Assembly (NCBI RefSeq): GCF_014201615.1
Contig: NZ_JACHEU010000001.1
Coordinates: 2,623,631 to 2,687,630, forward strand
Direction: 5' to 3'
Source: Aquamicrobium lusatiense
GTDB taxonomy: Bacteria > Pseudomonadota > Alphaproteobacteria > Rhizobiales > Rhizobiaceae
DNA length: 64,000 nt
Of this stretch, positions 59,136 to 64,000 are shown in pieces. Position 1 is the stretch's first letter. Each line of letters opens with the position of its first letter. The notes beneath the pieces were generated by a model that searched no databases, had not been told where the DNA came from, and saw only the letters and a program-made list of their open reading frames with translations. Both the position numbers and the translations under genes were made by a program.

Positions 59136-59417
59136 TTGTCCACCACGTTCGATAAAGTCGCCAAGATCATTGCAGAGACCAGCGAAATCGATCTCGACAC
59201 CATCACCCCCGAAAGCCACACCATCGACGATCTCGGCATCGACAGCCTCGACTTCCTCGACATCGTGTTCGCCATCGACAAGGAATTCGGCATCAAGGTT
59301 CCGCTCGAGAAGTGGACCCAGGAGGTCAACGACGGCAAGGCCTCGACCGACGAGTATTTCGTCATGAAGAATCTCTGCGCCAAGATTGACGGGCTGATCG
59401 CCGCCAAGGGCGCCTGA
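59136..59417 (+). CDS. acpXL: Specialised acyl carrier protein AcpXL
   Basis: Carrier for the very-long-chain (27-hydroxyoctacosanoate-type) acyl group added to rhizobial lipid A. It has 93 residues from a TTG at 59136 with AAGGAAAA 8 bp upstream. The phosphopantetheine serine is Ser37 in GIDSLDFLD, and the [20 protein letters not shown] start is typical of AcpXL, not AcpP. First gene of the cluster that ends with lpxXL. Confidence 0.95.
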
Positions 59418-59451
59418 GCCTGAAATCGGCACACAGGATCGGCAAAGCCTC

Positions 59452-60639
59452 ATGAGCGCTCGCGACGTCGTCATCACCGGCATCGGCCTCGTCTCCTCTC
59501 TGGGAGAAGGTGCTGATGCGCATTGGCTGAAACTGTCCGCCCCCGGCACGAAGCCGGTGGTGGATAGCGAGCGTTTCGCGCCCTACACGATCCATCCCCT
59601 GCCCGAGATCGACTGGAGTCTGCAGATCGCCAAGCGTGGCGACCAGCGCCAGATGGAAACATGGCAGCGCCTCGGCACCTACGTTGCCGGCCTTGCGCTC
59701 GCGGATGCCGGCATCCGCGACAACGAAGACCTGTGCGCAACCATGGATATGGTGGTGGCGGCAGGCGGCGGCGAACGCGACGTGGCCGTCGATTCCGACA
59801 TTCTGGCCGCTTCCGAACAGCGCGACGACTTCGATGTCCTGCTCAACGAAAAGCTGACCACGGAACTGCGCCCCACCCTCTTCCTGGCGCAGCTTTCCAA
59901 CCTGCTGGCCGGCAACATTTCGATCGTTCACAAGGTTACCGGCTCTTCGCGCACCTTCATGGGCGAGGAAGGTGCCGGCGTCTCGGCGATCGAGACGGCA
60001 GCCGCCCGCATCCGCTCCGGACAGTCGACGCACATGCTGGTTGGCGGCGCGTTCCAGACCGAGCATCCCGATATGCTGCTGGGCTATGAGCTCGCCGGCT
60101 ATCTGCATCGCGGCGACTGGAAACCGGTCTGGCAAAGGCAGGACGCAGAAGGCGGCGGCATCGTCTCCGGCTCCGGCGGCGCCTTCCTTGTGCTGGAAAG
60201 CCGCGAGCATGCCGAGAAACGTGGACAGCGCATCTATGCAACGCTCGGCCCCGTGGCCAGTGGCCGCGCCCGCCGCGACAAGGGCGAACTGGCCTCTGCC
60301 ATCGGCAAGCTGCTCAATGTCACCGACCTGCCCGCTGAGGGTTTCCTGACCATTTCCGGTGCATCCGGCGCCCACAAGGCGACGGAGACGGAAAAAGCTG
60401 CCTTCGACGAAAAGGACAATGTCGCGCTGCGCGCCTTCTCGACACTGACCGGCCACCTCAAGGAAGCGCAGTTCCCGTTCGCGGTGGCGCTTGCGGCTCT
60501 TGCCGTCAGCAACAGGGCCTCCTATCCGGCTTTCGAAGCGGATGAGAAGCCTTTCGAGGGGCAGCTGAAATCCGTTCTGGCAACGACCATCGGCTATCAC
60601 CATTTCGAGGGCATGGCGCTGGTCAGCGCCCTCGACTGA
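59452..60639 (+). CDS. fabF2XL: Ketosynthase-like protein lacking the active cysteine (FabF2XL)
   Basis: A 395-residue thiolase-fold protein of the AcpXL cluster, beginning VVITGIGLVSSLGEGADAHW. Where active ketosynthases have TACASG, this has FMGEEG (169-174), so the nucleophilic cysteine is glycine; the only cysteine in the protein is Cys95. The first catalytic histidine region (normally HGTGT) reads GASGAHKAT. A later TLTGHLKEAQFP at 331-342 still resembles the second histidine loop. It therefore probably acts as a non-catalytic partner of FabF1XL in elongating the very long chain. It follows acpXL by 34 bp and precedes fabF1XL by 15 bp. Confidence 0.9.
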   Translation: MSARDVVITGIGLVSSLGEGADAHWLKLSAPGTKPVVDSERFAPYTIHPLPEIDWSLQIAKRGDQRQMETWQRLGTYVAGLALADAGIRDNEDLCATMDMVVAAGGGERDVAVDSDILAASEQRDDFDVLLNEKLTTELRPTLFLAQLSNLLAGNISIVHKVTGSSRTFMGEEGAGVSAIETAAARIRSGQSTHMLVGGAFQTEHPDMLLGYELAGYLHRGDWKPVWQRQDAEGGGIVSGSGGAFLVLESREHAEKRGQRIYATLGPVASGRARRDKGELASAIGKLLNVTDLPAEGFLTISGASGAHKATETEKAAFDEKDNVALRAFSTLTGHLKEAQFPFAVALAALAVSNRASYPAFEADEKPFEGQLKSVLATTIGYHHFEGMALVSALD

Positions 60640-60654
60640 AGTCCGGAGCCTGGC

Positions 60655-61926
60655 ATGACGAAATTCACGGATCATCTTGGACGTCCCGTCGTCGCCGTCA
60701 CCGGCATCGGCGTTGTGACCTCGCTCGGCGTCGGCAAGAAGGACAACTGGGAAGCGCTGACCGCCGGCAGGTCCGGCATTCATCCCATCACCCGCTTCCC
60801 GGTCGATCACCTCAACACCCGCATTGCCGGCACCGTCGATTTTCTCGCCTCGTCCTCCAAGGGCGCGAGCGCGCTGACCTATGAGCTGGCTGAAACCGCG
60901 GCTGAGGAAGCCGTGGCCGAGGCGGGCCTTGCCATTGATGATTTCGGCGGCCCCCTGTTCCTCGCCTCCCCGCCGGTCGAACTGGACTGGCACGACCGGC
61001 TGGCGCTCTACAGGAACGGCGACGACAAGCCCGCGCCGGATCGGCTGCTGGAAGTGGCGCGCAACCTCAATTCGCTGGAAATGTTCGATTCTTCGCAGTT
61101 CGCGACGATTGCCGACAGGCTGGCGGACCGTTTCGGCGCGACCGGCCTGCCGATCACGCTGTCGACCGCCTGCGCCTCCGGCGCAACCGCCATCCAGCTT
61201 GGCGTCGAGGCGATCCGGCGCGGCGAAGCCAACCGCGCCCTGTCCATCGGCGCTGATGGCTCGGCAACCGCCGAGGCGCTGATCCGTTTCTCGCTGCTGT
61301 CGGCGCTGTCCACCAGCAACGATGCGCCGGAAAAGGCATCAAAGCCCTTCTCGAAGGACCGCGACGGCTTCGTTCTGGCCGAAGGCTCCGCTGCGCTGGT
61401 GCTGGAATCGCTGGAAGCCGCGACGGCGCGTGGAGCCACCGTGCTGGGCATCATCCGCGGTTGCGGTGAAAAGGCCGACGACTTCCACCGCACCCGCTCC
61501 AAGCCGGATGCTTCGCCGGCCATCGCCGCCGTGCGTGCAGCCCTTGACGATGCGGGACTTGGCGAGGACGGCATCGACTACGTCAACGCCCACGGCACCT
61601 CGACACCTGAAAACGACAAGATGGAGCATCTGTCGCTGTCGACCGTATTCGGCGAGCACATCAACCGCATGCTGGTCTCATCCAACAAATCGATGATCGG
61701 CCACACGCTCTCCGCCGCCGGCGCGATCGAGGCCGCTTTCTCGATCATGACCATGCGCGAGGGCGTCATTCCGCCGACCATCAACTATGACAATCCCGAC
61801 CCTGCGATCACATTCGACGTCGTGCCGAATGTGAAGCGGGAAGCCGAGGTGCGCACGGTGCTGTCGAACTCCTTCGGGTTTGGCGGCCAGAACACCTGCC
61901 TTGTCATGGCGCGGGAACCTGTCTAA
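60655..61926 (+). CDS. fabF1XL: Beta-ketoacyl-ACP synthase II-type FabF1XL
   Basis: Condensing enzyme of very-long-chain fatty acid synthesis. It has 423 residues. The full catalytic triad is present: Cys173 (STACASGATA), His313 (VNAHGTSTPEND) and His350 (NKSMIGHTLSAAGA). The closing NSFGFGGQNTCLV glycine-rich loop is intact. It probably pairs with FabF2XL directly upstream. Confidence 0.94.
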   Translation: MTKFTDHLGRPVVAVTGIGVVTSLGVGKKDNWEALTAGRSGIHPITRFPVDHLNTRIAGTVDFLASSSKGASALTYELAETAAEEAVAEAGLAIDDFGGPLFLASPPVELDWHDRLALYRNGDDKPAPDRLLEVARNLNSLEMFDSSQFATIADRLADRFGATGLPITLSTACASGATAIQLGVEAIRRGEANRALSIGADGSATAEALIRFSLLSALSTSNDAPEKASKPFSKDRDGFVLAEGSAALVLESLEAATARGATVLGIIRGCGEKADDFHRTRSKPDASPAIAAVRAALDDAGLGEDGIDYVNAHGTSTPENDKMEHLSLSTVFGEHINRMLVSSNKSMIGHTLSAAGAIEAAFSIMTMREGVIPPTINYDNPDPAITFDVVPNVKREAEVRTVLSNSFGFGGQNTCLVMAREPV

Positions 61927-63045: not shown

Positions 63046-64000
63046 TTGGCCTCCGGTTCAACCGGCAACTGGCGCCGCGAACTGAAGTTCCGCACCGCCC
63101 TGCGCTTTCGCAAATTCCGGCACTGGCTGGTGGCGAAGCTTGCGATCTGCGTCATGTCGGTTCTGCGCCTGCTGCCGCCGGACAGCGCGCTCAATTTCGC
63201 CGGGAGCGTTGCCCGCCGCGTCGGCCCGCTGACCGGCCGCCACAAGCTGACGCTGGACAATCTGCGACAGGCCTACCCTGAAAAGAGCGACGCCGAAATC
63301 GAAGCCATCGCCCTCGATATGTGGGGCAACATGGCCAGGCTCGGCGCGGAATATATCTTCCTCGACAAGCTGTTCGATCTCGACCCATGGTCCGATACGC
63401 CCGGCCGCATCGAGGTGTCGAAGGAAAGCATCGCACTGTTCGAGCGTATCGCGGCCGACGAGCGCCCGCACATCATCTTCACCGGCCATCTCGGTAATTT
63501 CGAGCTGCTGCCGGTGGCCGCGGCGACCTTCGGCATGAAGGTGACCGCCCTGTTTCGGCCTCCGAACAATCCCTATATCGCGGACTATATCCAGTCGATG
63601 CGCTCCTCCAGCATGGGCGAACTGATGCCGTCGCTCAGCGGCGCGTCCTTCGCACTGGCATCGATTCTCGATCAGGGCGGCAATGTCGGCGTTCTCGTCG
63701 ACCAGAAGTTCATCAACGGTCTTGAAACAACCTTCTTCGGCCGCACCTGCCAGAGCAATCCGCTGCTCGGCATGCTCGCCCGTCATTACGAGTGCGACGT
63801 CTATCCCGCCCGCTGCGTGCGCCTTCCGGGAAACCGCTTCCGGCTGGAGATCGAGGAAAAGCTCGATCTGCCGCGCGGCCCGAAGGGAAATGTGGACGTA
63901 AAGGCCACGACCCAACTGGTCACCGATGTGGTGGAACGCTGGGTGCGCGACGATCCCGGCCAGTGGATGTGGTTCCACAAACGCTGGCAGCTAAGCGGCA
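63046..64000 (+). CDS. lpxXL: Lipid A acyltransferase LpxXL, 5' part
   Basis: Transfers the very-long-chain acyl group from AcpXL to lipid A at the inner membrane. The frame is open from a TTG at 63046 to the window edge, giving 318 residues, so only the end is missing. The HX4E motif of the LpxL family is His148 to Glu153 in GHLGNFEL; DQKFINGLETTFFGR and GQWMWFHKRW are further signatures. GAGGGG 9 bp upstream supports the TTG. It follows adh2XL by 13 bp. Confidence 0.94.
   Translation, partial: MASGSTGNWRRELKFRTALRFRKFRHWLVAKLAICVMSVLRLLPPDSALNFAGSVARRVGPLTGRHKLTLDNLRQAYPEKSDAEIEAIALDMWGNMARLGAEYIFLDKLFDLDPWSDTPGRIEVSKESIALFERIAADERPHIIFTGHLGNFELLPVAAATFGMKVTALFRPPNNPYIADYIQSMRSSSMGELMPSLSGASFALASILDQGGNVGVLVDQKFINGLETTFFGRTCQSNPLLGMLARHYECDVYPARCVRLPGNRFRLEIEEKLDLPRGPKGNVDVKATTQLVTDVVERWVRDDPGQWMWFHKRWQLSG

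Follow-up and report, generated by a model that had tools for sequence, protein, structure and literature searches.

FabF2XL, a ketosynthase fold without its catalytic residues, as the probable heterodimer partner of FabF1XL in the AcpXL pathway

What is the function of a ketosynthase-fold protein that has lost the residues needed for condensation and is encoded directly beside an intact ketosynthase? A 64,000-nucleotide stretch of Aquamicrobium lusatiense DNA, here called the window, raises this question with two adjoining genes, fabF2XL and fabF1XL. The initial annotation of this DNA proposed that their products form a heterodimer for synthesis of the very long acyl chain of lipid A, comparable to the active ketosynthase (KS) and inactive chain-length factor (CLF) of type II polyketide synthases (PKSs). 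At the level of sequence, four properties are established: near-obligate pairing of the genes, invariance of the residues that replace the nucleophile, loss of catalytic residues in FabF2XL, and complementary conservation of the two proteins. The proposal that the inactive partner and the active ketosynthase work as a heterodimer is strongly supported by co-occurrence, duplication of the pair, CLF-like nucleophile replacement and complementary conservation, and on these patterns FabF2XL very probably dimerises with FabF1XL.

Loss of the catalytic residues in FabF2XL

FabF2XL is predicted to adopt a full ketosynthase fold. It scores 603.9 bits against NCBIfam NF005084 (PRK06519, 'beta-ketoacyl-ACP synthase'; ACP, acyl carrier protein), above the curated cut-off of 320, and in Pfam it matches only PF00109, with an E-value of 0.001. 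A structure prediction using 57 of 99 other copies plus the window copy gave a complete ketosynthase fold with a predicted local distance difference test score (pLDDT) of 94.2. Alignment with E. coli FabF, the genome's own FabF and FabB, and FabF1XL places Glu173 at the nucleophile position (FabF Cys163) and Glu172 at the alanine before it. The initial annotation had matched FMGEEG with the ketosynthase motif TACASG, which was two residues out of register, TACASG aligning with GEEGAG (residues 171-176). Its claim that FabF2XL lacks the nucleophilic Cys and the first His was upheld, and the catalytic Lys is gone too.

These replacements were followed through 93 loci fetched from 90 of the 140 other FabF2XL genomes (141 with the window's own), which we chose at one to several per genus; locus L250 was left out of the analysis. 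Together with the window they give 100 FabF2XL rows, 99 of them from the fetched loci and including short copies (L028, 293 aa; L030, 340 aa; L101, 252 aa; L102, 327 aa), and 98 FabF1XL rows, 97 of them fetched. Both glutamates are present in 100 of 100 rows. The column of FabF His303 holds Gly (83), Ala (11), gaps (3), Ser (2) and Val (1), never His, and in an alternative alignment it is mostly Ser, Thr or Cys, again without His. Lys is likewise absent from all 100 rows at Lys335 (Gly 60, Ala 21, Ser 9, Thr 5, Gln 2, gap 2, Pro 1). From the Cys-His-Lys-His set of FabF/KASII, FabF2XL therefore retains the second His (FabF His340) only, in the window copy and 82 of 100 rows, the remainder being mixed. 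Its motif is present in all 120 database relatives among the matches listed, which are close ones (77-98% identity). Judged from these residues, FabF2XL is a dead partner.

FabF1XL presents the opposite picture. The Cys173, His313 and His350 attributed to it were all found in place in its open reading frame, with Lys345 as the fourth catalytic residue, and the Cys, His, Lys, His and gate Phe are each conserved in 98 of 98 rows. Pro107 and Trp112 of FabF1XL are also invariant (98 of 98 rows; residues 106-112 correspond to window positions 60970-60990). In an alignment of unsure register they fall close to Ile108, the gating residue of FabF, and may be a trait of the live subunit tied to very long chains.

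At the cysteine position 79 of 80 CLFs of our control set (the best 80 loci listed, actinobacterial, 79 with a KS-alpha) have an acid or amide, as do KSQ domains, and on that resemblance FabF2XL could prime AcpXL as a KSQ-like malonyl-ACP decarboxylase. KSQ domains combine Gln at this site with the catalytic His pair, and decarboxylation by ketosynthase folds relies on that pair. The combination occurs in none of the 100 FabF2XL rows, which carry Glu instead of Gln throughout and have neither the first His nor the Lys, making a priming decarboxylase very unlikely.

Loss of the Cys and first His is also all that speaks for FabF2XL being a decayed gene, a view that we reject on the evidence of its orthologues. 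The initial annotation had named beforehand relatives that keep the Cys as the finding that would count against its proposal, and among the 100 rows there are none. FabF2XL is conserved across the class, and comparison with three same-genus copies gave nonsynonymous and synonymous divergences (dN, dS) of 0.164 and 0.969, 0.163 and 0.829, and 0.168 and 0.917, a dN/dS of 0.17-0.20. The invariance of Glu-Glu and these low dN values relative to dS indicate a conserved pseudoenzyme. In a single genome (G353, locus L030) FabF2XL is broken into two overlapping frames, by sequencing error or a recent break.

A published mutant also speaks against decay. An A. fabrum fabF2XL insertion mutant makes lipid A without very-long-chain fatty acid and is partially rescued by plasmid-borne fabF2XL (PMC11901934); the gene is the first of the unit fabF2XL-fabF1XL-adh-lpxXL. 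Since fabF2XL comes first and its plasmid copy partly rescues, FabF2XL itself appears to matter. In Bradyrhizobium ORS278, mutation of fabF1XL or fabF2XL could not be achieved (PMC5613085), and in S. meliloti a mutation in either gene proved disadvantageous for growth in the medium of that study (PMC5539429). Both proteins are called ketoacyl-ACP synthases (PMC7663294, PMC11901934) or elongation proteins (PMC5613085). No mention of a missing Cys or of a heterodimer was found in the passages of these papers on fabF2XL. A search joining acpXL with 'chain length factor' found no paper, most of the subscription literature, probably including the original cluster papers, lying outside that search.

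Pairing and duplication of the two genes

In a class-wide set of 387 genomes, FabF2XL is present in 21, with a gap in best scores from 302 to 83 bits. FabF1XL is present in 20 (E below 1e-135), all of them among those 21; in the remaining genome (G191) FabF2XL is truncated at a contig end. Within an order-level set of 397 genomes each protein occurs in 124, and the two genome sets are identical. At the fetched loci FabF1XL lies directly downstream on the same strand for 97 of 99 FabF2XL copies, so that a ketosynthase gene with its active site (Cys in 98 of 98 rows) adjoins a Cys-less ketosynthase-fold gene (Glu in 100 of 100). The gap is within 60 bases in 80 of these 97 pairs, and 15 bases in the window. 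The two unpaired copies are L028, the copy of G191 truncated at its contig end, and L089, considered below.

Duplication has largely kept the pair together. Ten genomes of the order set carry two FabF2XL copies, and nine were fetched. Each copy has its own FabF1XL beside it in eight of the nine (G396, G438, G469, G643, G655, G668, G753 and G742), G426 being the exception. Two FabF1XL were recovered at the search threshold in only 8 of the 10 genomes, and two second FabF2XL copies are shortened (L101, 252 aa; L102, 327 aa). At L096-L099 the FabF1XL and FabF2XL copies fall by identity into the same two sets, with one FabF2XL exception (L096).

Second pairs occur in several lineages (L096-L099, L066/L067, L101, L102, L052/L053), and at L096-L099 adh sits between the two pairs. 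Such genomes perhaps make a second very long chain, or chains of two lengths. Further afield, Cys-less ketosynthase genes annotated as ordinary synthases stand beside Cys-bearing ones in Streptomyces sp. NBC_01003 (L106, 4289-5590) and Apilactobacillus kunkeei (L108, 4852-6051); from these two cases, dead ketosynthase partners may be commoner than annotated names imply.

Complementary conservation and the proposed heterodimer

In the aryl polyene KS-CLF both subunits contribute to the wall of the cavity, whose end lies at ApeO His138 and ApeC Glu142 (PMC8358021). Because that cavity is shared, we measured column entropy in the equivalent of FabF 116-155, within each family's own alignment and divided by the family mean. 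The ratio is 1.70 in FabF1XL and 0.57 in FabF2XL, and the known heterodimers divide in the same way (KS-alpha 1.47, CLF 0.44). Homodimer controls give 0.88 for FabF (30 of 30 chosen genomes, the same genomes as the XL pairs) and 1.00 for FabB (24 of those 30, above the family cut-off). Restricting the XL proteins to the 30 rows matched to FabF-control genomes changes little (1.66 and 0.59). In FabF1XL, 93% of same-length stretches are less variable than this segment, and in FabF2XL only 7.6% are more conserved. The catalytic segments show the opposite order (FabF1XL 0.19, FabF2XL 0.85, KS-alpha 0.14, CLF 0.53, FabF 0.17, FabB 0.35). The FabF2XL minimum among eleven regions tabulated is FabF 132-143, with a ratio of 0.25, and Leu139-Arg140-Pro141-Thr142 and Asn155 are found in 100 of 100 rows. 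Our reading is that FabF2XL would be constrained where it serves FabF1XL's pocket and FabF1XL would be released from constraint opposite the inactive site, the position of the segment at the partner's pocket being taken from the fold of the family.

This pattern bears on whether FabF2XL is instead a separate homodimeric pseudoenzyme or regulator alongside a FabF1XL homodimer. Ketosynthase folds are usually dimeric, which suits such an arrangement, and gene pairing alone is no proof of contact. The relaxation of FabF1XL in 116-155, at 1.70 (1.66 on the matched genomes) against 0.88 in FabF and 1.00 in FabB, would be unexpected if the segment lined the pocket of an active homodimer, and we consider two separate homodimers unlikely.

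Complex prediction, which the initial annotation had called for, agrees with a heterodimer, though not specifically. Because the two genes share a reading frame, the stretch was folded with AlphaFold as one 824-residue chain. A shared frame, with gaps of 0 to 150, occurs at 28 loci; 25 of these have a single stop, and 23 of the 25 were used with the window as 24 paired rows. The fused model has a pLDDT of 87.9 and a predicted template modelling score (pTM) of 0.91. Among 50 Foldseek matches listed, 49 are ketosynthase chains covering one half (template modelling (TM) score 0.45-0.46 of the query). The PfaC KS-CLF structure 6riw matches both halves over 948 columns (TM 0.73 of the query, root-mean-square deviation 6.3, 14% identity), its live and dead halves being, by name, in the reverse order. 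The model and this match are consistent with a heterodimer and not decisive.

We are now able to propose a mechanism, which we hold to be probable as a whole: a dissociated fatty-acid heterodimer of KS/CLF type acting with AcpXL. FabF1XL and FabF2XL, both ketosynthase folds, would associate 1:1 as a heterodimer in which FabF1XL performs all the chemistry through its Cys-His-Lys-His set. FabF2XL would be unable to condense, Glu173 sitting where the nucleophile used to be. Its segment 139-155, which is invariant, would cross the interface to form part of the FabF1XL acyl pocket. FabF2XL would also stabilise the dimer, may help AcpXL to dock, and would allow, perhaps limit, chain growth to about C28.

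A competing account shares every step except this last one. FabF2XL would be a heterodimer partner serving only as scaffold or AcpXL docking site, with length set by the FabF1XL pocket, LpxXL selectivity or carrier supply. In the ishigamide complex the CLF is reported to touch the ACP (PMC8358021), and FabF1XL has unusual invariants of its own in Pro107 and Trp112; however, the lowest-entropy tabulated region of FabF2XL is just that expected to line its partner's pocket. We give this scaffold role an appreciable chance, somewhat below even. That FabF2XL sets chain length is, by analogy with CLFs, a tentative proposal only just short of an even chance. The broader version is equally tentative: FabF1XL/FabF2XL would build the very long chain of lipid A, with dead FabF2XL, via its invariant segment, acting as a C26/C28/C30 ruler across the Alphaproteobacteria, a CLF device that may be independent of the polyketide CLFs.

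Several observations weigh against the heterodimer mechanism. At L089, in an assembly of 550 contigs, FabF2XL is followed by other open frames and no FabF1XL, a second FabF1XL of that genome lying on a different contig. The FabF 60-95 region departs from the KS/CLF pattern (FabF 1.50, FabF1XL 1.65, FabF2XL 0.66, KS-alpha 1.65, CLF 1.07), FabF1XL resembling the homodimer there and FabF2XL being unlike CLFs. A purely structural role has no need of the His340 retained in 82 of 100 rows. AlphaFold probably docks any two ketosynthase halves, and the fused model is compatible with two homodimers too. The heterodimer itself, the role of the segment at the partner's pocket and any setting of chain length are inferences.

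Should one of the two be a dead partner, testing one protein without the other will fail or mislead, how a length of about C28 is measured can be addressed by exchanging a single gene, and the KS/CLF principle would extend from polyketides and polyunsaturated fatty acid (PUFA) megasynthases to a stand-alone outer-membrane fatty acid pathway; on the ruler reading, a CLF device would serve a structural membrane lipid.

The features of the locus are collected in the table. No fabZXL lies in the acpXL-fabF2XL gap (59418-59451). Of the 93 fetched loci, 82 have a fabZXL-like open reading frame, and none was found at L031, L032, L033, L036, L037, L041, L042, L053, L066, L088 and L089; the FabA/FabZ family has two matches elsewhere in the window's genome. 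The absence of fabZXL has been described for Mesorhizobium loti, housekeeping FabZ being said to serve instead (PMC7663294, table note).

Table. Features of the acpXL-lpxXL region, in window coordinates
Feature	Position	Strand	Basis
acpXL, dedicated acyl carrier protein, 93 aa, TTG start	59136..59417	+	NCBIfam NF005079, 180.8 bits
fabF2XL, catalytically dead ketosynthase-fold partner, 395 aa	59452..60639	+	NCBIfam NF005084, 603.9 bits; model pLDDT 94.2
FabF2XL residues 139-155, LRPTLFLAQLSNLLAGN, about FabF 129-145, expected (by inference) to line the partner's pocket	59866..59916	+	alignment
FabF2XL residues 166-176, SRTFMGEEGAG, former nucleophile site, Glu172-Glu173 replacing Ala-Cys	59947..59979	+	alignment
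fabF1XL, ketosynthase with intact active site, 423 aa	60655..61926	+	NCBIfam NF005076, 736.9 bits
FabF1XL nucleophile Cys173	61171..61173	+	98/98 rows
FabF1XL His313 (FabF His303)	61591..61593	+	98/98 rows
FabF1XL Lys345 to His350 (FabF Lys335, His340)	61687..61704	+	each 98/98 rows
adh2XL, zinc-type dehydrogenase, 342 aa	62004..63032	+	Pfam PF00107, PF08240
lpxXL, lipid A acyltransferase, continuing past the window end; TTG start is our own reading	63046..64000	+	NCBIfam NF005120, 461.3 bits

Comparison with known ketosynthase pairs

One of the nearest parallels is the KS-alpha/CLF pair of type II PKSs (actinorhodin, PDB 1tqy). Here too the genes are neighbours, one subunit carries Cys, His, Lys and His, and segment 116-155 shows complementary conservation. 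The CLF, like FabF2XL, is full length and lacks the first His, and its nucleophile pair is Glu (50), Asp (29) or Gly (1) followed by Gln (74), Glu (5) or His (1), so that an acid mostly precedes the acid or amide that replaces the Cys; actinorhodin CLF reads AEQAGG where FabF2XL reads GEE-x-AG. Gene order differs, the dead fabF2XL coming first, whereas of the 79 control loci 68 begin with KS-alpha and 11 have it second. CLFs have Asp for His303, keep Lys335 and have Arg for His340, each in 80 of 80, in contrast to FabF2XL, which has lost Lys335 and mostly keeps His340; the CLF combination of Asp303 with Lys335 occurs in none of its 100 rows. The product differs as well, being in the XL pathway a reduced fatty acid on AcpXL. 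In trees FabF2XL forms a single group (support 100/100). Without the motif columns, its union with CLF (approximately unbiased test, p-AU 0.488) and with FabF1XL (0.501) are both retained, and the tree decides for neither.

The PfaC KS-CLF didomain of PUFA synthases (6riw) is likewise a KS-CLF for long fatty acids, said to perform their final elongation (PMC12895367), and the fused model matches both of its halves. It differs in being part of a single megasynthase polypeptide with a polyunsaturated product, whereas the XL pair are separate proteins. ApeO-ApeC shares a Gram-negative setting and a fatty-acid-like cycle, its cavity being lined by both subunits (PMC8358021); in contrast to that system, FabF2XL is full length. 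The FabF/KASII homodimer provides the fold and the best sequence matches, but FabF2XL lacks its catalytic residues and FabF1XL is relaxed in the segment that reaches the partner. In our judgement, FabF1XL/FabF2XL probably works like a KS/CLF pair, and we do not place it in the polyketide CLF clade.
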